Made by a program: the position numbers and the translations under genes
Source: Mesorhizobium sp. SARCC-RB16n
GTDB lineage: Bacteria; Pseudomonadota; Alphaproteobacteria; Rhizobiales; Rhizobiaceae
Direction of reading: 5' to 3'
DNA length: 64,000 nt
NCBI RefSeq assembly: GCF_008520305.1
Contig: NZ_ML703258.1
Location: 1 to 64,000, forward strand
Notes under the pieces: model-generated
What the model was told of the DNA's origin: nothing
The model's database searches: none
The model's input: the letters and a program-made list of their open reading frames with translations, nothing else
Shown: positions 10,653 through 63,696 of the stretch, in pieces
How positions within the stretch are numbered: the stretch's first letter is position 1
Layout: the number at the start of each line of letters is the position of its first letter

Positions 10653-11045
10653 CTACCAGCGCGCCAGCTCCGTGATCTGGACGAGATTGCCGCAGCCATC
10701 ATTCACCTGCGCGATGGTCGAGCCGGTCACCTCGGTCGGCGCCATGGCGAAGGCACCGCCATTCGCCTTGATGCGCTCATGGTCGCCCTTGATGTCGTCG
10801 GTGAAGAGCATCAGCGCCGGCTGGCCCTGCTTGAAGATCGCCTGCTGGTAGGCCTTGGCCGCCGGGTTGTCGTTCAGCGCCAGCTGCAATTCGGTTCCGT
10901 CGGGTTCTTCGGCCGAGACGACCGTCAGCCAGCGGAACGGACCGTTGCTGAAATCGGCTTTCTTGGTGAAGCCCAGTACGCCGGTGTAGAAGGCGAGCGC
11001 CTTTTCCTGATCGTCGACATAGATGCTGGTCAGTTTGAGTTTCAT
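10653..11045 (-). CDS. VOC family (glyoxalase/bleomycin resistance-like) protein
   Basis: A 130-residue vicinal-oxygen-chelate protein with two beta-alpha-beta-beta-beta modules. The opening is SIYVDDQEKALAFYTGVLGF, the first module ends ELQLALND, and the second contains ALMLFTDDIKGDHERIKANG and the closing DGCGNLVQITEL. The position usually occupied by a metal-binding His at the N-terminus is not obviously filled, so a catalytic role is uncertain. GGAGAAA precedes the ATG. It is downstream of the ArsR-SRPBCC pair. Such ArsR-SRPBCC-VOC-DUF1801 groupings recur in alphaproteobacteria. Confidence 0.87.
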   Translation of the reverse strand: MKLKLTSIYVDDQEKALAFYTGVLGFTKKADFSNGPFRWLTVVSAEEPDGTELQLALNDNPAAKAYQQAIFKQGQPALMLFTDDIKGDHERIKANGGAFAMAPTEVTGSTIAQVNDGCGNLVQITELARW

Positions 11046-11120
11046 CGCTGTTTCTCCATGGGTTTTCTGGCGGAGAACCGCCCTGTAAAATTGCTGTGTG
11101 GCTTGCCTGGCCGAGAGGCC

Positions 11121-11552
11121 TCAGTCCGTCCGCGCCAGAAGCTCTTCCAGCTTCTCCAGGAATTGCGGCCACCCCACCTTGGCGCCGCCATAGGCCCGTC
11201 TCTGGTCGGGCCGGAAACCGGCCTGCTCCATGCGCAGATGGGTTCCCGTCGGCGTCGGAGTGAGCGTGAAAGTCACCACGCTCCTGAGATCGAAGGCCGG
11301 ATCCTGGTGCGCGAGGTTCCAGCTGTAGGACAGCGTCCTGTGCGGCTCGACGGCGAGCACCTCGCAGTCCAGCACGCCGCCCCAGTCGCCGCTGAGGTTG
11401 AAGCGATGGCCGACGACGGGATTGAAATCATTCTTCATCAGCCACTCCTCGATCAGATGCGGTTGCGTCAGCGCGCGCCAGAGTTTTTCAGGCGGATGGG
11501 AGATTTCCCGCTCGACCACGACAGTGCGGGTCTCCTTGGCACTATCGTTCAC
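11121..11552 (-). CDS. SRPBCC (AHSA1-like START) domain protein
   Basis: A 143-residue AHSA1/CalC-type protein with the helix-grip fold, a hydrophobic-ligand pocket. The REISHPPEKLWRALTQPHLI opening, EVLAVEPHRTLSYSW and the C-terminal GWPQFLEKLEELL helix are diagnostic. GTG at 11552 is preferred because it overlaps the ArsR stop (GTGA) and has GAGGA at the right distance. The longer frame to 11627 lies inside the ArsR gene. Translational coupling to ArsR implies regulation by it. The ligand is unknown. Confidence 0.88.
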   Translation of the reverse strand: MNDSAKETRTVVVEREISHPPEKLWRALTQPHLIEEWLMKNDFNPVVGHRFNLSGDWGGVLDCEVLAVEPHRTLSYSWNLAHQDPAFDLRSVVTFTLTPTPTGTHLRMEQAGFRPDQRRAYGGAKVGWPQFLEKLEELLARTD

Positions 11553-11872
11553 TGGTCCATCCTCTTGAGTAAATCCTCGAGGTCGTCGAACCGGCTCACC
11601 CAGAACCCCGCCATCTCCCGCGTCCACTCCATCAGCGGCGCCAGCGCGCCGAGCTGCGCGCTGTAATGCGTCTGGCGGCCTTCATGGCGATCACGCACCA
11701 GCCCGGCGTGCTTGAGCACGCCCAGGTGCTTCGACACCGCCGGTTGCGAGACGCCGGACTGGCTCGTCAGTGCCCCGACCGTCTGCTCTCCCTGCCGGCA
11801 CAGCCGCTCGAAGATCGCCCGCCTGGTCGGGTCGGCGAGCGTCCTGAAGAGCATGTCATGAGCATCCGGCAT
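11549..11872 (-). CDS. ArsR family transcriptional regulator
   Basis: A 107-residue winged helix-turn-helix protein of the ArsR/SmtB family (LADPTRRAIFERLCRQGEQTV, SGVSQPAVSKHLGVLKHAGLV, then a DRHEGRQTHY wing). It lacks a cysteine metal-binding box, and belongs to the subgroup usually paired with SRPBCC genes and not with metal resistance. Its last 4 bases overlap the SRPBCC start. It probably represses its own operon (SRPBCC, VOC, membrane protein, DUF1801 genes) in response to an unidentified signal. Confidence 0.9.
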   Translation of the reverse strand: MPDAHDMLFRTLADPTRRAIFERLCRQGEQTVGALTSQSGVSQPAVSKHLGVLKHAGLVRDRHEGRQTHYSAQLGALAPLMEWTREMAGFWVSRFDDLEDLLKRMDQ

Positions 11873-11968
11873 CCGAGATCGATAACCCGTTGGCTATTGG
11901 TTGACGTATAACCGCAGGGATATATGTTTGTCAAGCGGAAGATTGGAGTGTCCTGAATCCGGTGACGG

Positions 11969-13403: not shown

Positions 13404-13848
13404 TGCATTTCTCCTTTCTTGATCCTGTTTCTGGTACGCTTGCATACTCTGGCTGCCATGCTCCGGGGGGACAATGCGCCGTCTGACGCAGGCATCGCTG
13501 CCGACCCCGTTTGCGCTCGCTGTTTTCGCTCTGCTTTTGGTCCGATCCGCTCCACCTTTGGGACCGCCCTTGCCGGTCACGCGTCTCGCGAGGCGTCATC
13601 GCCTCCCGTGTCCGATGGTCACCAGACCATCGCCCGACGCGCCGCCATGAAGCGTGCACGCGCCTGGACCGGCCATCTGCGCCGGCATGGTCGATTTGGG
13701 CTTCATTGCGGTGGGGTCAAGACATGGTAATGCAATGTGATCGACGCCACTGTTCGAAATGGAGTGGGACTAAAAATCAAAGCTCCACGCCGCGGTCGTC
13801 ATGGAACGAGATCGCTCCAGGAACGTTTCATCCAGTTGGGAGGAAGCC
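13404..13848. other. Divergent intergenic region (Hsp20 / DUF2270)
   Basis: A 445-base gap between divergent genes. It should hold the heat-shock gene promoter and leader and the promoter of the DUF2270-antiporter unit. The stretch 13690-13800 is less GC-rich. No operator could be assigned. Confidence 0.4.
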
Positions 13849-14541
13849 ATGAACGATGCGCCGGCAACGCCCGTCGGCAGGACGCTTTCGCCAGGCGAAC
13901 TGGTGACGGTGATGTCCCATTTCCATCGCGCCGAGATCGCACGCATGGCCGGCTGGCGCGACCGGATAGATCGAACCAGCAACTGGGCGATTACCGTTGT
14001 CGCGGCGATGCTGTCGGTGTCGTTGTCGACGGCCAGCGCCCACCACGGCGTGCTGCTTTTCGCCATGCTGCTGGTGATGCTGTTGCTGTGGATCGAGGCT
14101 CGCCGCTATCGCTTCTTCGATGTCTACCGCGCTCGCGTGCGCCAGTTCGAGCGCCACTATTTCGCACAGATCTTTTCCCCGCAGCCGGATTTTGCCTCCG
14201 ACTGGCTGCTGGTCATCGGCGAAAGCCTGCGCACGCCTAAATTCCTGGTTTCGCAGCGGGTGGCGCTGGTGCGCCGTTTGCGCCGCAACTACATCCACCT
14301 GATGCTGATCCTGCTACTTGCCTGGATCCTCAAACTGTCGACTCCGAGCCTGCTTGACAAAGCCGCACCGGTCGGCTTCGTCGGTACATTGCGCGAGGCC
14401 GTCAACGCCGCAGCCTTGGGTCCCGTTCCCGGCATGGTCATCGTCGCGCTGGTCGTGCTCCTCTATGCCGGGCTGCTGGCCGCCGCTTTCCTGACACCCG
14501 GCGATGACGGCGAACTTTCCTTTGGCGACGTCCACGTCTGA
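13849..14541 (+). CDS. DUF2270 integral membrane protein
   Basis: A 230-residue protein of the DUF2270 family. After a hydrophilic start (residues 1-50, with HFHRAEIARMAGWRDRIDRT) there are two close hydrophobic helices at about 52-90 (IEARRYRFFDVYRARVRQFE follows), a cytoplasmic middle, and two more helices near 155-170 and 195-220. ATG at 13849 has GGGAGGAAG upstream. It lies 117 bases before the antiporter gene on the same strand. Function unknown. Its stop codon sits within a 23-base tandem duplication. Confidence 0.82.
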   Translation: MNDAPATPVGRTLSPGELVTVMSHFHRAEIARMAGWRDRIDRTSNWAITVVAAMLSVSLSTASAHHGVLLFAMLLVMLLLWIEARRYRFFDVYRARVRQFERHYFAQIFSPQPDFASDWLLVIGESLRTPKFLVSQRVALVRRLRRNYIHLMLILLLAWILKLSTPSLLDKAAPVGFVGTLREAVNAAALGPVPGMVIVALVVLLYAGLLAAAFLTPGDDGELSFGDVHV

Positions 14542-14567
14542 CATCTGGCGACGTCCACGTCTGACAT
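14523..14567. repeat. 22-base tandem duplication across a stop codon
   Basis: The sequence TGGCGACGTCCACGTCTGAC plus AT occurs twice, at 14523-14544 and 14546-14567, separated by one base (period 23). The first copy encodes the last codons and the stop of the DUF2270 gene, and the second lies just downstream. Confidence 0.9.
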
Positions 14568-14658
14568 TGACTTCGATTTCTTGATGACAAACGGCTGCAA
14601 CGCAAACGCCAGCCGCGCGTTGTGATGGTCAGTCCGTCGCGGCGTCTTGAGGGAATCC

Positions 14659-16992
14659 ATGAACCGGCAACCGGCAACGAGGTCACGCGCCGCTGTGGCC
14701 GCTCTTCTGCTCGCCGTCCTCGCCCTGGTTCCGGCAAGCCACGCGCTGGCCGCGCAGCCGGCCGGTCACGCCTCGGGCATGGGCGGCTCGGCGGAGGGGC
14801 TGTTCGTCGCCGAAATCGTGCTCCTGCTTCTGGTCGGGCGCGGGCTGGGCGAAATCTTCCAGCGCTACCGCCAGCCGGCGATCATGGGCCAGCTGATCGG
14901 CGGCATCCTGCTCGGACCGTCGCTGTTCGGTTGGCTCTGGCCCGACGCGCAGCACCTGATCTTTTCCACCGATCCGGCGCAGAAAAGCATGATCGATGCC
15001 GTCTCGCAGCTCGGCATCCTGCTCCTCCTCCTGCTCACCGGCATGGAGACGGACCTGCGCCTCGTTCGCCGGGTAGGTGCGGCCTGCTTCTCGATCTCGA
15101 TCACTGGCGTCGTCCTGCCCTTTGCCTGCGGCTTCGCGCTGGCGCAGGTGCTGCCGGATTCCCTTCTGCCCGAGCCGACCGAGCGCATCGTCGCCGGACT
15201 GTTCCTCGGCACGGCGCTGTCGATCTCCTCGGTCAAGATCGTCGCCATGGTGGTGCGCGAAATGAACTTCATGCGCCGCAATCTCGGCCAGATCATCGTC
15301 TCCTCCGCCATCATCGAGGACACGTTCGGCTGGCTGATCATCGCCGTCACCTTCGGCATCGCCACCAATGGCAGCCTGCAGGTGCTGCCATTGGTGCTGA
15401 CGGTCGCCGAAGTGGCGCTGTTCATGCTGGTCTCCTTCACCATCGGCCGCCGCCTGGTGTTCACCCTGATCCGCTGGAGCAACGATTCCTTCCGCAGCGA
15501 ATACGCCGTCATATCGGTCATCCTGATCATCATGGGCGTGATGGCGCTGATCACCAACCTGATCGGCGTGCACACCGTGCTCGGCGCCTTCGTCGCCGGC
15601 ATACTGGTCGGGGAATCGCCGATCTTGTCCGACCACATCGAAGGCCAGTTGCGCGGCGTCATCACGGCGCTGTTCATGCCGGTGTTCTTCGGCATGGCCG
15701 GCCTGTCCGCCGACCTCACCGTGCTTGCCGACCCGACGCTGGCGCTGCTGACGCTGGCGCTGGTGCTGATCGCCAGCATCGGCAAATTCTCGGGCGCCTT
15801 CCTCGGCGGCCGGCTGGCCGGCATGTCGCTGAAGGAGTCGATCGCCGTCGGCAGCGCCATGAACGCGCGCGGCTCGACAGAGGTCATCGTCGCCTCGATC
15901 GGCCTGTCGATGAACATCCTCTCCCACAATCTGTTCACGATGATCGTCACCATGGCCGTCATCACCACGCTGGCCATGCCGCCAATGCTGCGCTGGGCGC
16001 TCGGCCGGCTGCCGGTCGGCGATGCGGAAAAGCAGCGCGTCGACCGCGAACTGCTCGACGAGCGCGGCTTCGTCTCCAAGCTCGAGCGCCTGCTGCTGCT
16101 CGTCGACGACAGCCCGGTCGGCAAGTTCACCGCCTATCTCGCCGGTCTGGTCGGCGGCGGCAGCGGCATGCCGACCACGCTGCTCCACCTCGAAGGCGGG
16201 AAGCTGCCCGGCCCTGCCCGCGACAAAGGTTCCGAGCGGGCCTCGCAGCAGGTCAAGAAAGGGGCGGCCAGAAGCGCCAGGGCTGTCCGCAAGGCCGAGG
16301 ATACGCCCGTCGACAAGGTCCACCTGACGGCCCGCACCGAGATCGAGGCCACCACGGAGACGATCGCCGCGGAAGCGCGCAAGGGCTACGGCCTGCTGCT
16401 GGTCGGGCTGGACAACGCGCTGACCGACAAGGGCACCTTCAGCGGCACGCTGAACGATATCACCAGCGGCTTCGACGGCCCGCTCTGCCTGGTGCTGAAC
16501 GGTGCCAAATCCAGCGGCAAAATGCCGTTGCTGCGCACCAGTGCGACCATTCTGGTTCCCGTCAACGGCACCGAAGTCGCGCGGCGCGCGGCCGAGTTCG
16601 CGCTCGCCCTGGCGCGGCCGCACCGGGCCCGCGTGAAAGCCCTCTATGTCTCGCAGGCCCGCAAGGGCAGCCCGCCGAGCTCGGTTTCACACCGCCGCGA
16701 GGAGGCCGTGCTCAAGGATGTCGCCGATCTCGCCGATCGCTATGGCGTCGCCGTCGAGACCGCTATCAGGACGCGCGCCACGCCCGACAGGGCGATCGCC
16801 AGGGAGGTGGCCAAGGGCGCCGCCATGGTGGTGATGGGCGTCACGCAGCGGCCGGGCGAAGAGCTGTTCTTCGGCGACACGGCGACCGCGGTGCTGGCCG
16901 CCGTCGCCTGCCCGGTCGTGCTTCTGGCCAGCGACCGCGTCAGGCGAGCCGAAGCCGGCGCCGAGGAGGCGACAGCCGGGACCAGCGCCTGA
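14659..16992 (+). CDS. Cation/proton antiporter with C-terminal Usp-like domain
   Basis: A 777-residue CPA2-type (Kef-like) monovalent cation/H+ exchanger. A signal-like N-terminus ending ASHALA is followed by the Na/H-exchanger domain with about twelve helices (residues ~50-440). It includes RQPAIMGQLIGGILLGPSLF, the conserved helix start TAL-S-I-S-S-V-K-I, and GVHTVLGAFVAGILVGE. A long soluble region follows. Residues ~560-620 look like a degenerate Usp half and ~625-770 like a Usp domain (ATILVPVNGTEVARRAAEFA, ending VACPVVLLAS), though the usual G-2x-G-9x-G-S/T loop is only partly kept. ATG 14659 with GAGGGAA is used. Role: ion or pH homeostasis. Confidence 0.9.
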   Translation: MNRQPATRSRAAVAALLLAVLALVPASHALAAQPAGHASGMGGSAEGLFVAEIVLLLLVGRGLGEIFQRYRQPAIMGQLIGGILLGPSLFGWLWPDAQHLIFSTDPAQKSMIDAVSQLGILLLLLLTGMETDLRLVRRVGAACFSISITGVVLPFACGFALAQVLPDSLLPEPTERIVAGLFLGTALSISSVKIVAMVVREMNFMRRNLGQIIVSSAIIEDTFGWLIIAVTFGIATNGSLQVLPLVLTVAEVALFMLVSFTIGRRLVFTLIRWSNDSFRSEYAVISVILIIMGVMALITNLIGVHTVLGAFVAGILVGESPILSDHIEGQLRGVITALFMPVFFGMAGLSADLTVLADPTLALLTLALVLIASIGKFSGAFLGGRLAGMSLKESIAVGSAMNARGSTEVIVASIGLSMNILSHNLFTMIVTMAVITTLAMPPMLRWALGRLPVGDAEKQRVDRELLDERGFVSKLERLLLLVDDSPVGKFTAYLAGLVGGGSGMPTTLLHLEGGKLPGPARDKGSERASQQVKKGAARSARAVRKAEDTPVDKVHLTARTEIEATTETIAAEARKGYGLLLVGLDNALTDKGTFSGTLNDITSGFDGPLCLVLNGAKSSGKMPLLRTSATILVPVNGTEVARRAAEFALALARPHRARVKALYVSQARKGSPPSSVSHRREEAVLKDVADLADRYGVAVETAIRTRATPDRAIAREVAKGAAMVVMGVTQRPGEELFFGDTATAVLAAVACPVVLLASDRVRRAEAGAEEATAGTSA

Positions 16993-19148: not shown

Positions 19149-20600
19149 CTACCGTGAGAACGAACTTGGCTTTGCCAAACTTCCCTGAATGAGGCAGCAC
19201 ACGATGTAGACGGGGCTCGTGCCGGTATCAATCGGATAAACGAACAGCCCATCCTCCACTGGAAACGGTACCTCTTTCTTCGGGCTGCAATCGAGAACAC
19301 ACAGCACTGCAATCCGTCGATTTGTTCCGACCGCATAGCTCACGGGCTGTGAAGCGTAGTGCTTGCAATCTTCAGGCAGCAGTTTCTTCGCCGTTTCAGA
19401 TTTAAGCTCTATGCGGATGCCTCGAAAAGATAAATCCGTCCGGCCGCCCGTCGAATGGGCTTGTTCCTCTAGCGCCACGCCTATAGCCGGTTGTTGGCGA
19501 AGCCACTCGCGCACCTGTCGTTGAAACTCAGCTTCAGAAATGGCGGCGGGAAATTTGTTGTCCTGCACGGCCTGCCCCATGAGATTGGCAAGGGGAACGA
19601 GAACTGCAAGCAGGTCTTCAAGATCGTTTTCCGGAACAAGAGGTTCGAGGCGCAAAGCATCCCTCAAAGCGATGAGCTTCCTGTCGATGCCGGGATAGCC
19701 CGTAATCGGCTGCCGGCCCAGCTCGGAGCCATCCAGGCGAAGCGTTCTTTGCCCGGCAATGGAGACAGGTTTTTCCGATGGTGCCGGCTGAAATTCCGCC
19801 GAGTACATAAATTCGAATGGGCGCGCCTTGAGGTTCTGAGGTGCGTGCAAAATCATTCTGCCACGCTGCTGGAAGAAGTAGGGAGGCTCGCCAGACGGAC
19901 GGGAAAATCGAAAGTTGGGAAGATCATAGCTGTCACGCGGCTCTAATGAGACCGGGCTTAATACCAAAGTGGTCGCCGTTTCTGGCCAGCGCGAGACACG
20001 CACCGCAATGTCGAGATCATGGGTCTCTCGCGGCCGAAGGGTCTGGATTCTCTCTGCGGTAGTTCCGTTGATTTTGAACTCGACGAAGGCAACCGTGAGA
20101 TCAGGCTTTTGCTGCGTCGGAATCTGCTCCTGCTCGCGCGTCCAGTCGGGCCGCTCGAACGGGGGATCGGAAAAAATGGCGATTGGCAATGGAATGCCCG
20201 CAAGCTGCCGCCGCAAATGCCCAATTGCCGATATCTCGAATGCACCATTAATGGCGGATAAGACTTCGACCAAGCGCGTTACAAATGAATCAGGTTCCGA
20301 CCCTTCTCGTAGTTGCTTCAACCGCAACCGTGCGGCACGCAAGAATCGGTCAGCATCAATTGCAGCGCTAAGCGATGCCTGTTCCCACTCAGTCAAAAAG
20401 CGAACGACCTCTAACGCGGTAGCAAGGGCATGCCAATGTTTTGCAGCTGGCGCGTCTCCGAACGCCTTCGCCACTCCGTTTGCGTCATGTGCGAGCGTCT
20501 CAAACGTCGTCGCATCGTCACGCGATCCCGCTGCTTGCAGGGCGAGAACCGACTTAGAGCGGACGGGAAAAACTTGATCGAGAATTGCGTTTTTGGACAT
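19149..20600 (-). CDS. Unknown protein with C-terminal PD-(D/E)xK nuclease motif
   Basis: A 483-residue protein I cannot assign to a named family. The N-terminal ~380 residues are mixed alpha/beta (ALATALEVVRFLTEWEQASL; PDLTVAFVEFKINGTTAERI; ITGYPGIDRKLIALRDALRL). The C-terminal part has GGRTDLSFRGIRIELKSETA, with Asp389, Glu398 and Lys400 in the D-x8-E-x-K spacing of PD-(D/E)xK nucleases. It is followed by a CKHYASQPVSYAVG helix and the IAVLCVLD strand expected of that fold. ATG 20600 follows AGGCGG. Its first 47 bases overlap the end of the upstream 905-residue gene, so the two are coupled. Codon use is lower in GC than the chromosome. A DNA-cutting effector role is an inference. Confidence 0.72.
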   Translation of the reverse strand: MSKNAILDQVFPVRSKSVLALQAAGSRDDATTFETLAHDANGVAKAFGDAPAAKHWHALATALEVVRFLTEWEQASLSAAIDADRFLRAARLRLKQLREGSEPDSFVTRLVEVLSAINGAFEISAIGHLRRQLAGIPLPIAIFSDPPFERPDWTREQEQIPTQQKPDLTVAFVEFKINGTTAERIQTLRPRETHDLDIAVRVSRWPETATTLVLSPVSLEPRDSYDLPNFRFSRPSGEPPYFFQQRGRMILHAPQNLKARPFEFMYSAEFQPAPSEKPVSIAGQRTLRLDGSELGRQPITGYPGIDRKLIALRDALRLEPLVPENDLEDLLAVLVPLANLMGQAVQDNKFPAAISEAEFQRQVREWLRQQPAIGVALEEQAHSTGGRTDLSFRGIRIELKSETAKKLLPEDCKHYASQPVSYAVGTNRRIAVLCVLDCSPKKEVPFPVEDGLFVYPIDTGTSPVYIVCCLIQGSLAKPSSFSR

Positions 20601-23271
20601 CCGCCTGGAATTCCTTATATCGTTGAGCGTTTTCCTCCCATTGCCGCGCAAGGGCCTCTAAATCGCCCGTCCTACCCTCTGCGACGGCTTCTTCGAAGGC
20701 CGCAATAATTTCCACGGACTTCATCATTATTCGATGCCATTGATTGTGCACCGTCGCGTCGGGGCGGTTAACACCGGCCTCTGCGATCCTGCGCGCTTCT
20801 GCTAGGGCGCCCGCCCGGCCGAGTGCCTCAATAATGTGAAGCGCCAGCCAAGGCCGGTCCAACCCAATATCCATACCCAGCTTTGCAAGCTCGGCTTTGC
20901 GCGACAGGATAACTTCGTTCGGCAATTCTGCCAGCAAATCGAGTTCATCGCTTCGATGATCGCGGTCGTCGCTATCGGGAATGAGCTTGATTAAAAGATC
21001 AATGAACCCCTCAGTTCCGTAAAGAATCCTCCCCAGCGAGCTCAAGTGGTTTGTTAGGTAAAGCTGCTCAACACCCAGCAGCACCTTGATGAGGTACTGC
21101 CCGACCTCGCCAGCGGTGTTGCCAACCCCCCTGAGTTCATAAGCCAGGCGCTCCACGCAATCGACAAGGAAATCATCCTCGCCAGATTTTTGCGAATAGT
21201 GGCGAATCAAGTTGAGTAAAGCTTGAGCCGCCCGGTTTCGTAGGCTCTCCGGTAACTGGAAATAGCCGAGCGCACGGACTGCAGCCTTGTGGACCGCTAC
21301 ATATTGGTCCCACAACAACACCGAGAAAGCCTCGTAGACAAGCGGCGGGATATTCTCCTGCGGCGCTTTGCCGAGTGCCGCTGCGGCGTAGGCCCTTACC
21401 GCGACGGAATTTCCTACAAGTCCTGAATAGAGGTGAGGCAGAACCAAGTTCAGTCCTTCGACCGTGTCCCCAATATGCGCGATACAGGCAAGCATCATGC
21501 CTTTGAGATGGTCCCGGCCGTCCGGAATTTGATCGAAGAGGCCGATAACCTTTTTGACGAGCACGGGATCATCCTTGGCCGCGATGCTTGCCCATTCGAC
21601 CAGTGACGTAATGAGATACGTGATGCTGCTGCGCCGATTGTTCCGCTCCATCAATTTCAGAACATTCTGCTCTTTAGGCGCGGGCGTTTCATCGTGGCGG
21701 CGCAGCCGGTCATCAAGCAGCAGGATTGCCCCTAACAATCCATCCAACTCTGCACGCGCAATATCGATCATTTCATACGGTCGCCCCCGGAAAACCTCCC
21801 GTGCGCATTGCAAGATTTCTTCGCTCTCCTCTGTTGTCGAGGCCCAAAGAAGCCGTTGAAAACATATCCGGTGAACACGCGAATCCGGGGAAATCGGCGG
21901 CTCATCATGACGATGCCCGCGCAACGGAGCTTCATAGATTTTGTAAGCTCGATCCTTGGTGTTTCGATCCGATGTGGTGATGAACTCCTGCACCAGCGTG
22001 TCGACCTCATCCGGAAAGTCAGCAAAAGCTACTGCCAAGGCATCACGCAGATGCCGAAAAGCCTTGTGGTGTTCGTCGAAATCATCGAGCAGCAACTCGG
22101 CGCGAGAGAACTTCGATATCATCGTGCGCAAAAAGCCGTGCATCGCGCGCGGGTCACTTTGCTGCAATACCAGCAAACCGCGCGCGGCCAGCTCGACCTG
22201 GTAGGTGTGCCGGGAGGAAAGCAGTCGATCCAATCCGGCCCTCACAGCCGCCTGGTGTGTTGTCCAAAGGGCGAGCAAAAGTTCGGGTTCTGGCTCCGGC
22301 ATCGCTCGGCCAAAGCCATACTCGTTATAAGGCTTGGCGCGTTCGATGATGTTGGGCAGGGCCTCGGTGACAAGTGCTGCATCTGCCATTGAAAGCCTGC
22401 TCAGGAGCACGCGGCCTATCGTTTCTGTCGGCCGTGTTTGGGCCAAAGACGTAAGGGCGATCCTCACAATCCGCGCCGGATCAGCCTTCAGATGGTCAAG
22501 AACAGTGAGACCGGCTTCAGCAAACCACGTCTCCCGTTCGGCCAGGTCAAAAATGTAATCAACAATCGGTTGAGTGAAATGCTCTGGTGCGAGCCGCGCG
22601 CTTTCGCAAAGCCGGTCGCGGTGTTCCTGGTCGCGGTGTTCATCGTATTCGTCAATATGATCGACAATCGCACTGGACACAGAACCCAAGCCTACCCGCA
22701 ATTGCGAGCGGGCCAGCTTTCTAGAATTCTGTATCTCCAATCGCCGCGCTTCCGCCGCGGTTGCCTCTTTTGCCTCTTCCGCGCGCCGCTCGTCCCGCTC
22801 TTTGACCAGGCTCAAAAGGTTGGGAATGCTGACTGGTTTCCGATGTTTGCAGTCGATGCAATTCCGGTCGTAGAAATCAAGCGCCGCGTCCTGCAAGTCC
22901 CACGTGAACATGCCGCCAGCGGTGGCGTAGTCGCATTTCAAACCATGGTGGCCAATTGGAAGGCCGGTGGCTTGCTCAACCAGGCCGGTGCCGCCATGTT
23001 TTTCGACTTTCGCGTGCGCGCACCAATTGCGCACAAGCTCCATCGCCGCGCGGTTTCGTTCGCCTGCCTCGATAGCCTTTTGAATTTCCTTGTCCACGGG
23101 GCGAAATCCTGACGCGAAATTCAGCGTCGACTTGAGATGGAGAAAATGGGAACATACATAGAACGAATAGTAGAATCCATAGTATCGCGTGCCAAGGACG
23201 AATGGCGATGCGTTCGATACCTTGTCCGCAGGATTTTGGAAAAAAAGTACATCATGGGCAGTAATTTCCAA
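20554..23271 (-). CDS. Large unknown helical-repeat protein with HEPN-like motif
   Basis: A protein of about 905 residues with no family I can name. The first ~170 residues contain aromatic helices (GTRYYGFYYSFYVCSHFLHL) and then LVRNWCAHAKVE, an R-x4-H motif (Arg81, His86) like the catalytic motif of HEPN ribonucleases. A Cys/His pair (CIDCKHRK) follows. The remaining ~700 residues are almost wholly helical, with repeating blocks such as AAALGKAPQENIPPLVYEAF that resemble HEAT/ARM repeats. The start is uncertain. The frame is open to a GTG at 23358, but that would bury the start of the divergent neighbour, so TTG 23271 is my choice. It still overlaps the neighbour by 18 bases. Cotranscribed with the nuclease-motif gene. 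Confidence 0.7.
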   Translation of the reverse strand: MEITAHDVLFFQNPADKVSNASPFVLGTRYYGFYYSFYVCSHFLHLKSTLNFASGFRPVDKEIQKAIEAGERNRAAMELVRNWCAHAKVEKHGGTGLVEQATGLPIGHHGLKCDYATAGGMFTWDLQDAALDFYDRNCIDCKHRKPVSIPNLLSLVKERDERRAEEAKEATAAEARRLEIQNSRKLARSQLRVGLGSVSSAIVDHIDEYDEHRDQEHRDRLCESARLAPEHFTQPIVDYIFDLAERETWFAEAGLTVLDHLKADPARIVRIALTSLAQTRPTETIGRVLLSRLSMADAALVTEALPNIIERAKPYNEYGFGRAMPEPEPELLLALWTTHQAAVRAGLDRLLSSRHTYQVELAARGLLVLQQSDPRAMHGFLRTMISKFSRAELLLDDFDEHHKAFRHLRDALAVAFADFPDEVDTLVQEFITTSDRNTKDRAYKIYEAPLRGHRHDEPPISPDSRVHRICFQRLLWASTTEESEEILQCAREVFRGRPYEMIDIARAELDGLLGAILLLDDRLRRHDETPAPKEQNVLKLMERNNRRSSITYLITSLVEWASIAAKDDPVLVKKVIGLFDQIPDGRDHLKGMMLACIAHIGDTVEGLNLVLPHLYSGLVGNSVAVRAYAAAALGKAPQENIPPLVYEAFSVLLWDQYVAVHKAAVRALGYFQLPESLRNRAAQALLNLIRHYSQKSGEDDFLVDCVERLAYELRGVGNTAGEVGQYLIKVLLGVEQLYLTNHLSSLGRILYGTEGFIDLLIKLIPDSDDRDHRSDELDLLAELPNEVILSRKAELAKLGMDIGLDRPWLALHIIEALGRAGALAEARRIAEAGVNRPDATVHNQWHRIMMKSVEIIAAFEEAVAEGRTGDLEALARQWEENAQRYKEFQADVQKRNSRSSFSRPL

Positions 23272-24060
23272 ATCATTCAGCTTGGTATCGAGCCAGAAGC
23301 TTTGAAGAAATTCCCGAATCGCCAGCGCAACCAGCTTGTGGGCTGCATGCACGCCCACAACGAGCTCGCCGTATTGAACCGCCTTCTGATGTTTTCACTC
23401 AACGACGTGGGAGATGGGGAGCTTCACGACGATGCTCATGGCGTTCAAATGTGGACAATTATGCAGTTACTCAGCGGCAAGCTGTTCGAGACGTGGAATA
23501 TGCTGGCGGAACGTCTTCTGGCGGCAAAACCGGAAGATCCAGCCATCACGGGCCTGAGTGACCAGCACAAAATCAGCCTTGCCTGGCTTAAGGATTATTT
23601 TGGCGAACCGAGCCTCAAAGAAACAGCGCTTCGCACAATCCGCGACAAGACAGCCTTTCACTACGACAGGCTGAATTTGGATCAGGCCGTCGCCAGCCTC
23701 ACCGAGCAAGAAAGCAAGGTGTATCTGGCTGAGTATCCTGCCAATAGTTGCTATTATGTCGGGGCAGCATTGGTGTTCCGCGCCGCTTTTACGCTGGTAG
23801 CAGATAAAGCAATTGATACCGCAACAATGAGCGACGGCGAGCGCATGGAGGCTGGCGCCAAGATCGCACTTGACGCCTTGAATGAGGCCAACCTTCACAT
23901 TCACAATGTTCTCTATGGGCTCATCGACGGATTGTTGCAGGTGGCAATCGGAATGCCGCTTGAGCACGTTGAACAGCTTCGCATTCCGGTGGTGGACTCA
24001 CCCGCGCCAACGGTCATAGGTCTGCCGATGTTTGTGGACATTGGGAACGGAGAAAGGTGA
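23254..24060 (+). CDS. Unknown protein with HEPN-like R-x5-H motif
   Basis: A 268-residue mostly helical protein. It contains HNELAVLNRLLMFSLNDVGD, the tryptophan-rich helix SGKLFETWNMLAERLL, and TALRTIRDKTAFHYDRL, in which Arg130 and His136 give the R-x5-H pattern of HEPN nucleases. No membrane segment or signal is present. ATG 23254 (MGSNFQIIQLG) is chosen; the upstream frame to 23137 runs into the divergent gene's coding sequence. It is 6 bases upstream of the next gene and clearly forms an operon with it. Codon use is low-GC like the rest of the island. Function unknown; membership in a defence module is inferred from context. Confidence 0.72.
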   Translation: MGSNFQIIQLGIEPEALKKFPNRQRNQLVGCMHAHNELAVLNRLLMFSLNDVGDGELHDDAHGVQMWTIMQLLSGKLFETWNMLAERLLAAKPEDPAITGLSDQHKISLAWLKDYFGEPSLKETALRTIRDKTAFHYDRLNLDQAVASLTEQESKVYLAEYPANSCYYVGAALVFRAAFTLVADKAIDTATMSDGERMEAGAKIALDALNEANLHIHNVLYGLIDGLLQVAIGMPLEHVEQLRIPVVDSPAPTVIGLPMFVDIGNGER

Positions 24061-24066
24061 AGGAGA

Positions 24067-25095
24067 ATGCCTGACAGGTTCATTGCTGACTTTCTTGTCG
24101 AGTCCAATATTGTCCTCACAAACGAGAGCAAAAAGCTGTCCTATCCGGCTCCAAACGGTGAGTACGAGGTTCACATATCTGATGCCAAGGCGAGCGATGA
24201 TCCCGACGCCAGTTTGAATATGCAGGTCATTTTACATGCGGAAGACATTGATGAGGCCGAAGAGCAGGCCCGACCAATACTCAGGAAATTTCTACATCTT
24301 TTAAGCTTTGTCACCAATAGCCAGTTTCGGATTCATCGGCTGGTGCGGCTCGTTAATTGGACGCCTGGCGTGGAGCGCCGAGAGGCCTATTTCTATTCCT
24401 CGGCGTATAGCGAGCCACCCATTCAAGCCCTGACCAGTGGTCTTCTGAGAACCGTTGAGAACCTTCAGAAGGAAGGTCCCAATCCGCTGGCTGAGGCTGC
24501 GTTGATGTGGTTCGCCAATGGGGTCGGTGCCTCGACTATGGAGGATCAGTTCCAATATTTTTGGTTTGTGGTGGAGACGGTTGCAGTTGGCACAAAATCC
24601 GCGATGAAAGTAACTGACAAATGCCAGAAATGCGGGGGCGGTCTGGTTTGTAGTTCATGTGGCAAGGCTTCCGAACACAGGCCGTTTGGAAAACAGGTCA
24701 TCCGAACATTGTTTGAACGGCTGGGTTTTGCAGAAGAGGTGATCGAGTTCTTTTTCTACATACGGAACGCGCTCATGCACGGAGAGGCCAGGGAGGTAAT
24801 CGAGGAGAAACTGACAGCGAGGCAGCCGAAATTTTCTTTCGAAAAGGCCGTGGATTTCATAGGCAAAGCGGCATTCGGTGCAGCTCAAATGGCTTTTACC
24901 CACGGCCAAAGGTCCGTGAAGCCTGGACAAATGCTCTTTCCCAGCACGTACGTGTCCCGGAAAATGACCGGCAAGTTTCGGATGATTATAGGCGTCGAAG
25001 GCGACGTCAATGATCCGAAGATTGAAGACGTAATGATGCCGGAAATCTCGCTCGTTCCGATTGGTAGCGTAGGATCCAACCCGGGGAGTAATTGA
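24067..25095 (+). CDS. Unknown protein with zinc ribbon and HEPN-like motif
   Basis: A 342-residue soluble protein. A four-cysteine zinc ribbon is formed by Cys186, Cys189, Cys195 and Cys198 (CQKCGGGLVCSSCG). About 35 residues later FFFYIRNALMHGEA gives an R-x4-H motif (Arg233, His238) in a helical context, as in HEPN domains with an inserted zinc knuckle. The N-terminal half has strands and helices (YEVHISDAKASDDPD, RIHRLVRLVNWTPG) and could be a sensor or binding part. GAAGGAGA precedes the ATG closely. It is the second gene of a two-gene operon. An RNase or RNA-binding effector role is possible but unproved. Confidence 0.73.
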   Translation: MPDRFIADFLVESNIVLTNESKKLSYPAPNGEYEVHISDAKASDDPDASLNMQVILHAEDIDEAEEQARPILRKFLHLLSFVTNSQFRIHRLVRLVNWTPGVERREAYFYSSAYSEPPIQALTSGLLRTVENLQKEGPNPLAEAALMWFANGVGASTMEDQFQYFWFVVETVAVGTKSAMKVTDKCQKCGGGLVCSSCGKASEHRPFGKQVIRTLFERLGFAEEVIEFFFYIRNALMHGEAREVIEEKLTARQPKFSFEKAVDFIGKAAFGAAQMAFTHGQRSVKPGQMLFPSTYVSRKMTGKFRMIIGVEGDVNDPKIEDVMMPEISLVPIGSVGSNPGSN

Positions 25096-25104
25096 ATTTC
25101 GACG

Positions 25105-25135
25105 TTTGGCAATGCGCGGGATTCGAACCCATTCG
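25105..25135 (-). other. tRNA T-arm-like fragment
   Basis: The minus strand reads GGGTTCGAATCCCGCGCATT at this place, resembling a tRNA T-loop with a short 3' stem. No matching 5' acceptor strand or anticodon arm is found upstream, so this is not a tRNA gene. It might be a remnant of a tRNA 3' end used as an integration site at the right side of the low-GC island. Confidence 0.3.
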
Positions 25136-25261
25136 CTGAAAGTAGTCTGTTAGCGCTCGAAAATCTCCCGGGCAAAGACCGCTTTTGGTGGTTGCCCACC
25201 GCAGTTCTAGCGACCTACATGAGGCGCCAAGCTCCCACTATATTCAACTCGTCCCTCCCCC

Positions 25262-32804: not shown

Positions 32805-33553
32805 GGGCCCTCCATGATCGTCACGCCCGCGTCGCCGCTGAGGCCGAAGACGACACCATCCGCATATTGCGGGTCTTCCAGCACGGAAACCACCATGTCG
32901 CCGAACGCCCGGGGCGGCATCGGCGCGCCGAAGCGGGTGACGAATTGTTCCGGCGTGATGCCCATCGAGCCGGCATAGGCGCCGGCCGCCGCGTCGCCGA
33001 TCCCGGTGCCAAGGATCATCTGCCGGGGCACGATCGCCTGGAAGCGGATGCCGAGGCCCTTCTCCTGCGCCACGCCATTGGCGTATTTGGCCATGAACCA
33101 GAGCATCCGCTTGGCGCCGCCATAGCCGCCCGACATCTGCGACCCGGTGACGGCGGCCCCGCTCGACCCGACCAGAACCCGGCTGCCCGGCCTGAGCGGC
33201 AGGTTCAGCGCCGCCTGCAGCCAGTAGAGCCCGGCCTTGACGTCGGTCTCCCAGGCGACGGAGAAATCCTCCCACTTCAACTGGTCCAGCCGCCCCATCC
33301 GGGGCGTTGCACCGGCGTTCAGCACCACTATGTCGGGGCGGACCTCGCCAAGAATACGATAGGCCGCATCCTCGTCCGTGACATCGGCCGCGATGGTGGC
33401 GACCCCAAGCCGCGCACCGACCGCCTCCAGCGCCTCGGCGCCCCGCGCGACCACGGTCACGCTGGCCCCCTGCTCGACCAGCGCTTCGACCAATCCGAGG
33501 CCAAGCCCCCGGCTGCCGCCGGTGACCACGATTTTCCTATCCCTGAGGCTCAT
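32801..33553 (-). CDS. Short-chain dehydrogenase/reductase (SDR)
   Basis: A 250-residue Rossmann-fold oxidoreductase. The cofactor loop VVTGGSRGLGLGL, the N-A-G motif in VVLNAGATPRMG and the catalytic Ser-Tyr-Lys (VGSSGAAVTG then GGYGGAKRMLWFM) are visible. ATG 33553 follows GGAGCAGGG. Its stop overlaps the ECF sigma-factor start, so the pair should be expressed together. Pairs of an ECF-SnoaL sigma factor and an oxidoreductase are frequent. Substrate unknown. Confidence 0.9.
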   Translation of the reverse strand: MSLRDRKIVVTGGSRGLGLGLVEALVEQGASVTVVARGAEALEAVGARLGVATIAADVTDEDAAYRILGEVRPDIVVLNAGATPRMGRLDQLKWEDFSVAWETDVKAGLYWLQAALNLPLRPGSRVLVGSSGAAVTGSQMSGGYGGAKRMLWFMAKYANGVAQEKGLGIRFQAIVPRQMILGTGIGDAAAGAYAGSMGITPEQFVTRFGAPMPPRAFGDMVVSVLEDPQYADGVVFGLSGDAGVTIMEGP

Positions 33554-33757
33554 TTGACCCTGCTCCAGTGTTTCACCGTAGCTAAGACGTTTGAGGGTCG
33601 GGAAAAGAGTCAGGGGTGAGCGAGATTGGCGATGGTGTCTGGACATGACGCCGACGCGCAAAGCGATCGTTGAGCAGCAAGCGATTGCCAAAATGACCGC
33701 AACGGCAAAGGATACGTCGGGGCAGTTTTACGAATGCGTGTGGGTTCGGGTGAGATC

Positions 33758-36373
33758 ATGTTCAGGCAAACAATCTTCGCCGTGGCGGCTGGCCTCTCGG
33801 TCCTGATGCTTCTTTACACGCTTCCGAGCCATGCGGAGACGCTCCGTCTGAACGGATCCATGCATTGGGTGATCCTCGCGGCTACCCCGGACCCGGACAT
33901 CGCAATAGGCGTCGCCAGGAGCTACGGCGGGCTCACACAAGGGGCGCAGGTTTTTCAGGCGCGAAATGGCTCCTACACGGTGGTTACTGGTCCGATCAGT
34001 GCGCGAACCATTTCGGACGCCAAGGCACAGATTACGAAATGGGATCCATTGCCCGATGATGCCTATCTTTCGTCCGGATCCGAGTTCGAGCGAAAGATTT
34101 GGAGCTTTTCGTCGCCAGTTCTGGCAAGCGGTAACTACAAGGCCGGCGCGGCCACGAGCATCCGGTACCAGGACATTCGGGTTGATCTCAGTGTCGCGCC
34201 CCATGGCGACATGTCGGTGCCGGTGGTCAACGTCTGGGAGGGCGACAAGGCGGCCTTCAGCTTCGTCGGGTCAGACGAATATGCGATGCCTTCGGCTGTT
34301 CTCAGTGCCAATATTGTCTGGCTCGATAAAACGTCGAGCAAGCCACAGATTGTAATCACGACATTCACTGGCGGTGCCCATTGCTGCGTCAAAACGATTC
34401 TTATCGGAAAGCCCCCCTCCAATACGTGGCAATTGGCCAAGGGAGAAGATCTCGACGGAGGCGGATACGGGCTTGAGGACGTCGACGGTGATGGCAATGC
34501 CGAACTGATCAATTCCGACAATCATTTCCTCTATGCTTTCAGCTCGTATGCGGACTCTTTTTCTCCGATCCGGATCAGCAAGTTTGTTGACGGCGGATTG
34601 ATCGACGTCACGGATCGGCCGGCGATGCAGCATCGCTTAGTTCAGCACGCGAACCAACTTGAGTATGCCGCCAGGCGACAACCAGATCTCTGGCATTCAA
34701 ATGGCTTCCTGGCTGGATGGGTGGCTTCGAAGATTCTCGTGGAGCAGGGCGACCAGGCGTGGTCCCGCATGACGATGAGTTATACCGCTATCTCGGATCT
34801 TGGCCCTGAGACGTGCGCGAACGGTGGCGCGGTAGAAGGATGTCCGCCTGATCTGGTGCGGAAAATCCCTTTCCCCACGGCTCTGCTAAAACTTCTCAAG
34901 GAGTTGCGCTACACGCCACTCCCCAACGTCACGGATAGGCCTGGCAGCGCAGCGTCGACGCCGGCGGACTACAATGCAGCGCGGACGGCATTTGAAAGCA
35001 TGCCGCTTGAAACACGCTACCAGTTCCAGATGCTGCTAGGCGTGGCCGGATACTGGCCTGCCGTGAGCAATGACAATTTTGGCAGACGCCTCTTCGAGGC
35101 GATCCAGAGCTTTCAAACGGACAATCACCTGCCTGTCACGGGTTCGCCGACGCAGGAAACGCAAGGCATTCTGGCACAGGCCGCTTCGCCATTGCTGCAG
35201 CAATGGGGGCTGAAGGAGATCTCACACCCCGCGGCTGCCTCACGGCTTTGGGTTCCGGCCGGCATTGGACTGAGTCAGATTCCGACCAAATCGGGGTACA
35301 GCTTCGCTTCCAGCTCAGGGATCGCGATCTCCTTTGACTATTACCCCGGGAGCAACCTTACAGCGAGCTATGACTCTCTCTTGAGGTATGCCGGACAGTA
35401 TCAAATTGTCTACAAGGTGAAAAAATCCCGGTTCTTCGCCTTGAACTTCCTCGACAACAATCGGAACACCTATGCCAGATACGAGGCTGCGTTAGGGGGC
35501 CTCATCGGCTTCACGATCAGTTGGCAAGCCGATTCACCGCTTCACGGCGAGCGCCTTTCAACCGTGATGTCCGATCTGTTTCGAGCGAATGTCGAGCTGT
35601 TGCAAGAGCGCGTTCCGCCAAGCGCCTTGGTGGGAGCCACCACCAGCGCCTCCGCCAACCCTCCGCCAGCGCCCTCGGTTGAACCGCCTCCCGCACCACA
35701 GCAAGCTGTCTCTCCAGCTCCGCCCGAAGGAAACGACCCAGCCGAAAGCCTCACTGGCGATACCGGATCCGGCTTCTTTGTGACGCCCTCGGGCCAGTTG
35801 GTGACGAACGAGCATGTGGTTCATGAATGCAAGACCATAGCAGTGCAGTTTCACAATGTGACGTTGCCAGCAAACCTGATAGCTCGTGACCCTGCAAACG
35901 ATCTGGCCGTTCTCGACACGCACAATCCAGGCATGACCGCTGTTTCGATGCGTGAAAGCGCCCGGCTGGGTGAAGGGATCGCGGTGTTTGGGTTTCCGCT
36001 CAATGGCATCCTGTCCAGTGGCGGAAATTTCACCTTGGGAAATGTGACAGCGACGTCAGGCTTGGGCGATGACAGCAGGCATTTGCAGATTTCGGCGCCG
36101 GTCCAGCCCGGCAACAGTGGCGGGCCGCTTTTGGATCTGTCCGGCAATGTTGTCGGCATTGTTCAGGCCAAATTCAACGCGATCAGGATGGCTTCAGTAA
36201 CCAATGACATCGCTGAAAATATAAATTTTGCGATAAAGTCTGAGATCATAACAAGCTTTCTGAAATCGAATGGCATTTCATATTCTGTCGGCGATCAATC
36301 GAATTTGCTGAAGCCTGAAGATCTCGCAGATCGCGCCAAAGGTTTTACGGCTCTAGTTGTTTGCTTGAAGTAG
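33758..36373 (+). CDS. Large exported protein with C-terminal trypsin-like serine protease domain
   Basis: An 871-residue protein with a signal peptide (IFAVAAGLSVLMLLYTLPSH). The N-terminal ~400 residues are unassigned. A D-x-D-x-D-G block (EDVDGDGNAELINSD, about 239-253) suggests a calcium-binding FG-GAP/EF-type loop. Residues ~417-480 resemble a peptidoglycan-binding helical domain (GRRLFEAIQSFQTDNHLPVT). A Pro/Ala-rich linker (~635-665) leads to a chymotrypsin-like domain with His686 (NEHVVH), Asp715 (ANDLAVLD) and Ser787 (QPGNSGGPL), all intact. There is no PDZ domain, unlike DegP. ATG 33758 is chosen. Codon use is less GC-biased than neighbours. Probably a periplasmic or envelope protease. 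Confidence 0.85.
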   Translation: MFRQTIFAVAAGLSVLMLLYTLPSHAETLRLNGSMHWVILAATPDPDIAIGVARSYGGLTQGAQVFQARNGSYTVVTGPISARTISDAKAQITKWDPLPDDAYLSSGSEFERKIWSFSSPVLASGNYKAGAATSIRYQDIRVDLSVAPHGDMSVPVVNVWEGDKAAFSFVGSDEYAMPSAVLSANIVWLDKTSSKPQIVITTFTGGAHCCVKTILIGKPPSNTWQLAKGEDLDGGGYGLEDVDGDGNAELINSDNHFLYAFSSYADSFSPIRISKFVDGGLIDVTDRPAMQHRLVQHANQLEYAARRQPDLWHSNGFLAGWVASKILVEQGDQAWSRMTMSYTAISDLGPETCANGGAVEGCPPDLVRKIPFPTALLKLLKELRYTPLPNVTDRPGSAASTPADYNAARTAFESMPLETRYQFQMLLGVAGYWPAVSNDNFGRRLFEAIQSFQTDNHLPVTGSPTQETQGILAQAASPLLQQWGLKEISHPAAASRLWVPAGIGLSQIPTKSGYSFASSSGIAISFDYYPGSNLTASYDSLLRYAGQYQIVYKVKKSRFFALNFLDNNRNTYARYEAALGGLIGFTISWQADSPLHGERLSTVMSDLFRANVELLQERVPPSALVGATTSASANPPPAPSVEPPPAPQQAVSPAPPEGNDPAESLTGDTGSGFFVTPSGQLVTNEHVVHECKTIAVQFHNVTLPANLIARDPANDLAVLDTHNPGMTAVSMRESARLGEGIAVFGFPLNGILSSGGNFTLGNVTATSGLGDDSRHLQISAPVQPGNSGGPLLDLSGNVVGIVQAKFNAIRMASVTNDIAENINFAIKSEIITSFLKSNGISYSVGDQSNLLKPEDLADRAKGFTALVVCLK

Positions 36374-36698
36374 ATTAATAGTTATTGAGGCTGCCTGGCT
36401 AGTATTCCTAGCGTCGGCGTCAGTGACTACCTCCTCCATATCGATCCCGACGATATCTCCTTCAGGACCAGGTGAAGCCGATATCTGCGGTCGAGACTGC
36501 GCAACCGAGAGGCACAACATTGCAAACGGCGATGTCTGCTTCTAGGTGCAGGCAGAGGCTGGTTGTAGGGCCGACATCAGAGCAAAGCGGCCATATGGCT
36601 TGGGGGCCGGCGCCAGACCGGCAGCTTCAAGGGCATGCCCAGTGGACGGTCCGCGGGACATGTGCTCCATGGTGGGGTGACGAAGTGGCGGGGAAGAA
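36374..36698. other. Intergenic region
   Basis: A 325-base gap between two plus-strand genes. No gene with acceptable codon use is seen. It ends with GGGGAAGAA, the ribosome site of the downstream lipoprotein gene. Confidence 0.4.
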
Positions 36699-37757
36699 GT
36701 GAAGCGCGTTTTTCGATTGTTTGCCGCGGTGGTTATGGCGTCCGCAGTGAGCGGTTGCACCAGCATTTCCTACTACGCGCAATCATTGGAGGGTCATGTC
36801 CGGATCATGGCCGCGCGCGAAGACGTCGGAAAATTGATCAAGGCCCCGTCGACCCCTGAGGCACTGCGCGCCAGGTTGACGTCGGCGAGCGCCATAAGGC
36901 GGTTCGCGACAGACGAGCTGGCATTGCCTGAAAACAGCAGCTACCACAGCTATGTCGACATCCACCGGGACGCTGTGACCTGGGCAGTCTTTGCCGCGCC
37001 GCAATTCTCGCTCACCCCAAAAACATGGTGCTTTCCGGTTTTCGGCTGCGTTCCCTACCGGGGTTACTTCGATCGGAAATCCGCGACGGAAAGCGCCGCC
37101 GAGCTTCATGGACAGGGGTTCGACGTCTACGTCACGGGCGTCACCGCCTATTCCACGCTGGGCTGGTCCAGTGACCCGCTGCTCAGCACCATGCTGCGTC
37201 AGGACGACACCTATCTCGCAAGCCTTATCTTTCATGAACTGGCGCATCAGCGCCTCTATGTGAACGGCGATTCCGCATTCAACGAGGCCTTCGCGGTTTC
37301 CGTCGAAGTCACCGGCACAAGAAAATGGCTGCGCGCGGCCGGCGATCGTGCCGGATTGCGCCGCTACGAAGCCTCCCGCAAGCGCAGCGCCGATTTTCTC
37401 GGACTGGCGTCGAAGACCCGCGACGAGTTGAGGCAGGTTTATGAAAGCTCCCGCGCCCCGGATGAGATGGCGGCTGCCAAGGCAGCCGCGCTCGACAGGC
37501 TGCGGATGCGCTACCGGCAAATGCGCGACAGAAGCTGGGCCGGATACCGGGGATACGACGCCTGGTTCGATGCCCCGATCAACAACGCAAAGCTCGCCGC
37601 GACTGCCGTCTACGGCGAACAGGTTCCCGCGTTTATTCGTTTGTTCGACCTGTGCTCCGGCGATTATCCGAGGTTCTACGCTTCCGTTCGACGGATCGCG
37701 AATTTGCACGAACCTGCCCGTGCCGAAGCGCTCAAGGCCGCGACCACCTGTGATTGA
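36699..37757 (+). CDS. Putative aminopeptidase lipoprotein (HExxH)
   Basis: A 352-residue protein that starts with a lipoprotein signal (FRLFAAVVMASAVSGC, lipobox ending at Cys20) and so is probably membrane-anchored. The zinc-protease motif is FHELAHQ (His179, Glu180, His183), with a further Glu in FNEAFAVSVE that could be the third ligand. The pattern fits the family annotated as putative aminopeptidase (PF10023 type): GGYFDRKSA-like and GVTAYSTLGWSSDPLLSTM segments. GTG 36699 has GGGGAAGAA before it. Confidence 0.85.
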   Translation: MKRVFRLFAAVVMASAVSGCTSISYYAQSLEGHVRIMAAREDVGKLIKAPSTPEALRARLTSASAIRRFATDELALPENSSYHSYVDIHRDAVTWAVFAAPQFSLTPKTWCFPVFGCVPYRGYFDRKSATESAAELHGQGFDVYVTGVTAYSTLGWSSDPLLSTMLRQDDTYLASLIFHELAHQRLYVNGDSAFNEAFAVSVEVTGTRKWLRAAGDRAGLRRYEASRKRSADFLGLASKTRDELRQVYESSRAPDEMAAAKAAALDRLRMRYRQMRDRSWAGYRGYDAWFDAPINNAKLAATAVYGEQVPAFIRLFDLCSGDYPRFYASVRRIANLHEPARAEALKAATTCD

Positions 37758-51891: not shown

Positions 51892-52385
51892 CTCTTCCTC
51901 CTCACGAATTCCGTGACGACTATTACTCCCGGCGCGGTCGACCTCAAACAAGGAAAGCTGAAAGGGCGTTTCGGCGGCCCCGACCGGGGGGCACGCATCG
52001 CGTCCGTTTAGGCGACGGCTGGGCCGCTCTGTTCGGCGTGCCGAGCTTCATACAGGTCCTGACGAGGCCAGGCGCATGTCCTAAGTCAAGACTTATGGCA
52101 GGTCCGAATGGTGTAATCTTTCCGAACAAATTCAATAGTTTACCGGATAGTTATCCAATCCGCATCCTTCGTATGATCTCGTGTGGTCTGGCGAACCTGA
52201 TAAGAGCTCCGAAATGAGCAGGAGACGCCGAACGACGCCAACAGCTCGTGTTTGCCGGAAGACACCGCAGGGGCGCATTAGGAGACATGTCTTGTCGGTA
52301 ATGTAAATTGAAAGCAGTAGGCTGGAAAATCGCCACTGCCAGGCTAGTTTATCAACGAGTGCTAAAATGACCTGGAGATCCCAAA
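51892..52385. other. Intergenic region upstream of the glycan cluster
   Basis: A 494-base gap between divergent genes. GC falls from about 52080 onward (for example AACAAATTCAATAGTTTACC), as in promoter-rich DNA. It presumably carries the promoter of the two nucleotide-sugar genes. No gene is credible: the minus-strand frame at 52132-52482 overlaps the start of the next gene and has poor codon use. Confidence 0.4.
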
Positions 52386-63459: not shown

Positions 63460-63696
63460 AGGAACCTCCAGTCTGCCGGGTGGTCTCGGATGCCGCCGAC
63501 GATGGCCCATTGGTGGCAAAAGGGGTGGCAGCCGGTTACCACGTTAGGAAATTGGCGTGAGGCTGGTTCACGCACCAAGGTCCGATTGTAGTCACTGCAA
63601 ATTGAGCGGAAAATGCGCTTCGGGTTGGTATCATATCGGCGTATGGGCTCAGAAACCCCGCTTCGCCCAGACCAACATCAAACGGGAGGTCTTCGC

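Follow-up and report, generated by a model that had tools for sequence, protein, structure and literature searches.

The described defence system closest to the locus reported here is Olokun, which consists of two adjacent genes, oloA then oloB, and whose mechanism is called uncharacterised in the available passages of PMC12592470 and PMC12926258; the passages available from these two sources and from PMC10121019 and PMC12629846 give no Olokun mechanism. Toxins and proteins of abortive infection frequently contain HEPN domains (PMC3710099). Here we compare with these a group of four genes at 19149–25095 of a 64-kilobase (kb) stretch of Mesorhizobium sp. SARCC-RB16n (contig NZ_ML703258.1, positions 1–64,000), the whole of which we call the window. 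Two of the genes match the PADLOC models of OloA and OloB, the third encodes an HEPN-like candidate of 268 amino acids (aa), and the fourth encodes a 342-aa protein of the MauJ family. We think it reasonably probable that this is a mobile, horizontally acquired defence island in which a divergent Olokun-like DNase pair is accompanied by independent HEPN-like cargo; the sequence comparisons below suggest a divergent relative of antiphage systems already known and not a new four-gene machine. The features are listed here; L-numbers denote loci of relatives, of which L001 is from Bradyrhizobium tropiciagri, and ORF denotes an open reading frame.

19149..25095, no strand: island of four genes, low in guanine-plus-cytosine (GC) content (0.545; the 5-kb flanks have 0.654 and 0.655)
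19149..20600, minus strand: OloB-like gene, 483 aa from ATG 20600; PADLOC OloB 5.7e-48; mechanical ORF reaches 20651
19401..19436, minus strand: D389-x8-E398-x-K400, PD-(D/E)xK-type motif, followed by Q418; invariant in 6/6
20554..23097, minus strand: OloA-like gene, 847 aa from GTG 23097; PADLOC OloA 3.5e-53; mechanical ORF reaches 23358
22849..23022, minus strand: Cys/His domain with C26, H28, C55, C80 and C83, invariant in 6/6; contains RNWCAH
23098..23253, no strand: putative divergent promoter region, from the alignment with L001
23254..24060, plus strand: HEPN-like candidate gene of 268 aa; mechanical ORF begins at 23137; without a family in Pfam or NCBIfam
23641..23661, plus strand: R130-D-K-T-A-F-H136 motif; R and H invariant in 9/9 aligned relatives
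24067..25095, plus strand: MauJ-family gene of 342 aa, separated by 6 bases from the end of the 268-aa gene; PF17419 1.7e-8
24622..24660, plus strand: C186, C189, C195 and C198, probable zinc knuckle; kept in the sole relative, L013
24763..24780, plus strand: R233-N-A-L-M-H238, HEPN-type motif; RNSLMH in the sole relative, L013

The ORF listing of the window shows four long ORFs arranged as two divergent pairs, as had been described in an earlier reading made from the letters alone (the sequence-only reading). The low GC content claimed there is also borne out: just 3 of 581 segments of island length (step 100, within the 64 kb) are as low, and GC at third codon positions is 0.58–0.61 in the four genes against 0.84–0.90 in the nearest neighbour genes. 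Comparison with relatives shows that the mechanical ORFs are too long for three of the four genes.

The OloA/OloB-like pair and its relation to Olokun

The two minus-strand genes overlap by 47 bases. Relatives of the 934-aa ORF align only from its residues 86–90, and because the homology begins there the OloA-like gene probably starts at GTG 23097; an AGGA lies nine bases before this codon (by eye), and the first possible ORF start is found at the matching position in L022 and L033 and six residues earlier in L012. The second gene, a 500-aa ORF as listed, probably starts at ATG 20600, which is the start of the L001 copy (10 of the 11 first residues are equal). Hmmscan against PADLOC-DB matches the two proteins to the OloA model PDLC03925 and the OloB model PDLC03926, so that the sequence-only reading, which recognised no named system, is superseded for two of the four genes. 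The OloA-like protein matches no other model at E ≤ 1, and the OloB-like protein matches a single further one, LmuA of Lamassu (PDLC03853).

The LmuA match joins the C-terminus of the OloB-like protein to residues 520–653 of the 655 in LmuA (3.1e-13 in the window, 1.7e-18 in L001), and among the relatives the model matches this C-terminus in L001 and L011 and, at 1e-5, not in L012. Identity with Lamassu was considered and rejected, since only the C-terminal part of LmuA is matched, no full-length LmuA and no match to the SMC-like LmuB occur among the island proteins, and the other three proteins match no Lamassu model.

The D-x8-E-x-K that had been picked out by eye in the OloB-like protein is present, and D389, E398, K400 and Q418 are kept in all six OloB-like proteins, which gives the residue pattern of PD-(D/E)xK nucleases. 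The secondary structure of a low-confidence model of this protein (H356-368, E377-381, E388-392, E395-402, H409-416 and E430-437; predicted template modelling score, pTM, 0.39) agrees with a motif of this type; the core fold of these nucleases is alpha-beta-beta-beta-alpha-beta. In the OloA-like protein C26, H28, C55, C80 and C83 probably form a zinc site, and matches to HEAT repeats are weak and sub-threshold. The sequence-only reading had described a helical-repeat protein of about 900 residues with an HEPN motif; the helical-repeat partner is retained on the HEAT matches, the gene is 847 aa long, and the HEPN assignment is rejected. RNWCAH is not an HEPN motif, because the likely start leaves just 22 residues ahead of it, its first residue varies (R in four of the six proteins, H in L022 and L033), and the Cys and His residues are the invariant ones.

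By analogy, the OloA-like protein, with a Cys/His domain on a HEAT-like solenoid, would most likely act as a sensor or scaffold. The solenoid would detect foreign DNA or a signal of infection and control the overlapping OloB-like effector, which would cut DNA with its C-terminal PD-(D/E)xK-type nuclease once infection is sensed. The pair offers clear mutational targets in D389, E398 and K400 and in C26, H28, C55, C80 and C83.

Matches to the Olokun models fall into two types. In surveys with the OloB model at E ≤ 1e-10, 4 of 385 genomes of the class and 8 of 398 genomes of the phylum have a match, with G001 in both. Eight of the 11 distinct matching genomes score 542–688 bits, one scores 299, and two (G001 and G848) score 165–170; the latter two are of the same type as the window, whose members score 145–172 bits against 542–688 for the main type. 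Proteins of both types match the same two PADLOC models. They differ in that the OloA-like protein is 847–861 aa long here and about 600 aa at the longest in the main type, and in that the main-type OloB has an invariant D47 and K67 near its N-terminus whereas the nuclease-type residues of the window type are C-terminal. Hmmsearch --max with sets of 6–9 sequences gives best E-values of 0.37 and 0.33 for OloB and of 0.0082 and 0.0013 for OloA between the two types, and hhalign of their profiles gives a probability of 1% or less, so that no similarity is detectable, although the profiles are small (six sequences of the window type, eight or nine of the main type) and a missing signal is no proof of separate origins. 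HEAT-like repeats could account for the weak OloA signal.

Either the two families have diverged to an extreme degree, or the PADLOC models were built on mixed alignments. If the models join two families, then Olokun counts mix two systems. We put forward, tentatively and as the less expected outcome, that the pair is a distinct, undescribed two-gene nuclease defence system under the Olokun label, not homologous to the main type, with a Cys/His-domain HEAT-like sensor and a beta-sandwich PD-(D/E)xK effector that has its C-terminal nuclease in common with LmuA, and that in one lineage a divergent promoter shared by both couples it to an HEPN-like RNase family that is likewise new. There is a real chance that the pair deserves a name of its own.

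Of 397 genomes of the order, 3 contain OloA relatives, the centre genome being one of them. No tblastn match to the OloA ORF was found at 1e-3 in plasmids or in phages, or to the L012 OloA in plasmids; scans of viral contigs with the single OloA ORF sequence and with OloB found no relative, and a scan with the OloA alignment found L022 and L023. The pairs of L019, L012 and L033 have no DNA match in Escherichia coli, and a main-type-like pair from L032 has a match at 69% in 2 of 5426 E. coli genomes.

The 268-aa and 342-aa genes

Four of the five genome relatives of the 307-aa ORF match only from residues 40–44, for which reason the gene probably starts at ATG 23254 and encodes 268 aa. With the thresholds applied, Pfam, NCBIfam and PHROGs assign its protein to no family, and its only PADLOC match (JetA2, E 0.021) is at chance level. 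An R-x5-H sits at a helix end, as in HEPN RNases, and its R and H are invariant in the nine aligned members of the family, down to 23–26% identity; a tenth member, L037 (E 3.7e-8), has no clean full-length frame and was kept outside the alignment, and by eye it retains both residues.

Identity with the HEPN family AbiU2 (PF18734) was examined and rejected, there being no match to the model at E ≤ 1 and a probability of 0.2% in hhalign against four AbiU2 proteins, a set from which L041, with one internal stop, was excluded. The PF18734 model finds matches in 5 of 31 genomes, and its single match in G001 lies on C30 and is not the C9 copy of the 268-aa gene. PMC3710099 lists an HEPN family 'Bxe_C0808' as 'in operon with AbiU2', an order that resembles, by description alone, that of the 268-aa and 342-aa genes. 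The 268-aa family profile matches 3 of 385 genomes of the class, centre included, and tblastn finds no match in plasmids at 1e-3. One relative is carried on a phage-like contig (L014) with VapE-type and helicase genes; the family is an HEPN-like candidate that has no Pfam model. In L003 an HNH_5 gene (10808–11968; PF14279, 3.8e-13) directly follows the 268-aa relative.

The 342-aa protein scores 35.8 bits with PF17419 (MauJ) over residues 145–269, above the family cut-off of 28, and its relative L013 scores 43.4. R233 and H238 are kept in both proteins, a comparison of just two sequences at 33% identity. Among 397 genomes of the order the gene is matched in one, G028, and it has no match in the five genomes that hold 268-aa relatives; no tblastn match was found in plasmids at 1e-3, and no relative in the viral-contig scan. 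A literature search on MauJ found no paper. In L013 (9001–11168) the 342-aa relative adjoins, in convergent orientation, a DUF5677 gene (PF18928, 1e-16), whose product is unlike the 268-aa family (hhalign 1%). We did not adopt a connection between ApeA and the 342-aa family, since the single PDB match behind it (9hxm_A) is weak (E 0.05) and covers a region that lacks the motif.

The R-x4/5-H motifs had been taken to mark three island proteins as HEPN-bearing. R-x4-6-H by itself occurs in 28 of the 37 other window genes listed (the stricter R-[NDHQ]-x3-5-H in 6 of the 37), and the strict form arises after residue shuffling in 16% of cases for the 268-aa protein and 13% for the 342-aa protein. 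Since the motif is so common in other window genes it carries little weight alone, and conservation decides: RDKTAFH is upheld by all ten relatives and RNALMH, provisionally, by one, and RNWCAH falls away with its variable R. The two plus-strand products may cleave RNA and arrest growth.

Linkage in relatives and competing readings

The OloA/OloB-like genes are adjacent at all six distinct loci (L023, a near copy of L022, is left out, as are L006–L010, L015–L018, L031 and L034, which duplicate counted loci in shorter form). At two of the six, the window and L001, the 268-aa gene lies next to the pair, and the pair stands without the other two genes at the remaining four. Among the seven loci of the 268-aa family (window, L001–L005 and L014), five have no pair in view, although for one of them, L002, the view on the left extends for just about 1.1 kb. 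The 342-aa gene lies beside the pair in the window alone, its one relative being elsewhere. Association with mobile elements recurs: the pair is also found on viral contigs (L022 and L023, with a VapE-type gene in L022) and, in L033, beside a phage integrase and a KfrA_N gene. In L001 the pair is accompanied by an AbiEii gene (PADLOC 1.4e-206) and an Mrr_cat gene.

In the reading that we favour, a mobile island with an Olokun-like pair, the two-gene HEPN-like cargo would travel independently of the pair at most of the loci seen. Several observations weigh against this reading. For the window type, which has no detectable similarity to the commoner family that fits the same PADLOC models much better, the name Olokun may not reflect common descent. 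The OloB structure model is poor (mean per-residue confidence, pLDDT, 66; pTM 0.39), and a structure search with it returned no nuclease row, a result that barely covers the C-terminal part and does not exclude the fold; the search with the 268-aa model returned HEPN toxins interspersed with unrelated helical bundles whose Z is as high or higher. PADLOC at 1e-3 matches 2 of 10 hand-picked proteins from related loci, both in L001. No direct repeat longer than 10 bases spans the island edges, and no attachment site was found.

The other readings differ mainly in which genes are taken to work together. That the pair and the 268-aa gene cooperate, as a three-gene subtype expressed from a shared divergent promoter, draws on their identical order and orientation in the window and L001 and on a conserved intergenic block (23150–23181, 25 of 32 bases the same, counted by eye in the alignment). 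This arrangement is seen, however, at just two of the six pair loci and two of the seven loci of the 268-aa family, and since the window and L001 are close relatives (61% identity in OloA, 72% in OloB) common inheritance of one island explains the linkage equally well; we rate cooperation as rather unlikely. One promoter-like site was found in the region, on the minus strand at 23195–23167, where 0.4 would be expected.

The 268-aa and 342-aa genes, 6 bases apart, could instead be a toxin and its partner unrelated to the pair, in keeping with the frequency of HEPN domains in toxins and abortive-infection proteins noted at the outset. Such a toxin–antitoxin couple is unlikely here: the two genes are not together in any other genome examined, which would be unusual for a toxin and antitoxin, and both proteins carry a putative active-site motif.

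A role outside defence, for the cargo or the whole island, such as the maintenance of a plasmid or phage, or a metabolic task in the vicinity of the dehydrogenase cluster, is suggested by the naming of MauJ after methylamine utilisation and by the occurrence of some relatives among ordinary chromosomal or phage genes (by eye), L012 being one whose surroundings look ordinary and chromosomal. No methylamine-utilisation gene was noticed beside the 342-aa gene when the ORFs were inspected by eye, with no dedicated search. The PADLOC matches, the nuclease-type motifs, the AbiEii and Mrr_cat neighbours in L001 and the foreign composition all point the other way, and we regard a non-defence role as quite improbable; the defence-like character proposed in the sequence-only reading is supported, as are its PD-(D/E)xK-type motif in one protein and HEPN-type motifs in two.

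The integrated four-gene system of that reading, with RNA- and DNA-cutting arms on an HEPN-bearing scaffold, is highly improbable, for although the four genes are adjacent, share a low GC content and include three with conserved candidate nuclease motifs, all four occur together in the window only, the pair and the 268-aa gene mostly occur apart at the loci counted above, the 342-aa gene is in none of the five genomes of 268-aa relatives and in one of the order, elsewhere, and the HEPN motif of the scaffold is rejected. The sequence-only reading had named a lack of linkage elsewhere as evidence against itself, and that is largely what was found, the exception being the three genes together in L001.

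Edges of the island and other observations

The island is flanked on one side by an ornithine-cyclodeaminase-like gene and on the other by a MoaD/ThiS-like gene and a xanthine-dehydrogenase-type cluster (named by eye from the ORFs). Just past its right end, at 25110–25140, the plus strand reads gcgcgggattcgaaccc, the reverse complement of which resembles a transfer RNA (tRNA) T-arm and may be what is left of an attachment site; in the 64-kb window ARAGORN detects no tRNA gene.

A search of eight proteins against PHROGs gave no match at 0.01, and a PDB sequence search gave no significant match. In L011 an HNH_5 gene (13573–14907; PF14279, 3.1e-7) directly follows the OloA/OloB-like pair. The pairs of L022 (4150–9155) and L023 (1783–6558) are near-identical, and the same VapE-type gene and gene for a 200-aa protein lie nearby in both; relative to these neighbours the two pairs point in opposite directions, as would result from an inversion of the segment. 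Beyond the 268-aa gene in L001 (12069–20873) are genes that resemble, by eye, a contractile tail cluster. Other stretches of lower GC content (about 0.53–0.58) are present in the window at 33500–37000, 52000–54000 and 61500–64000, and glycosyltransferase-like genes were recognised by eye at 56–62 kb.

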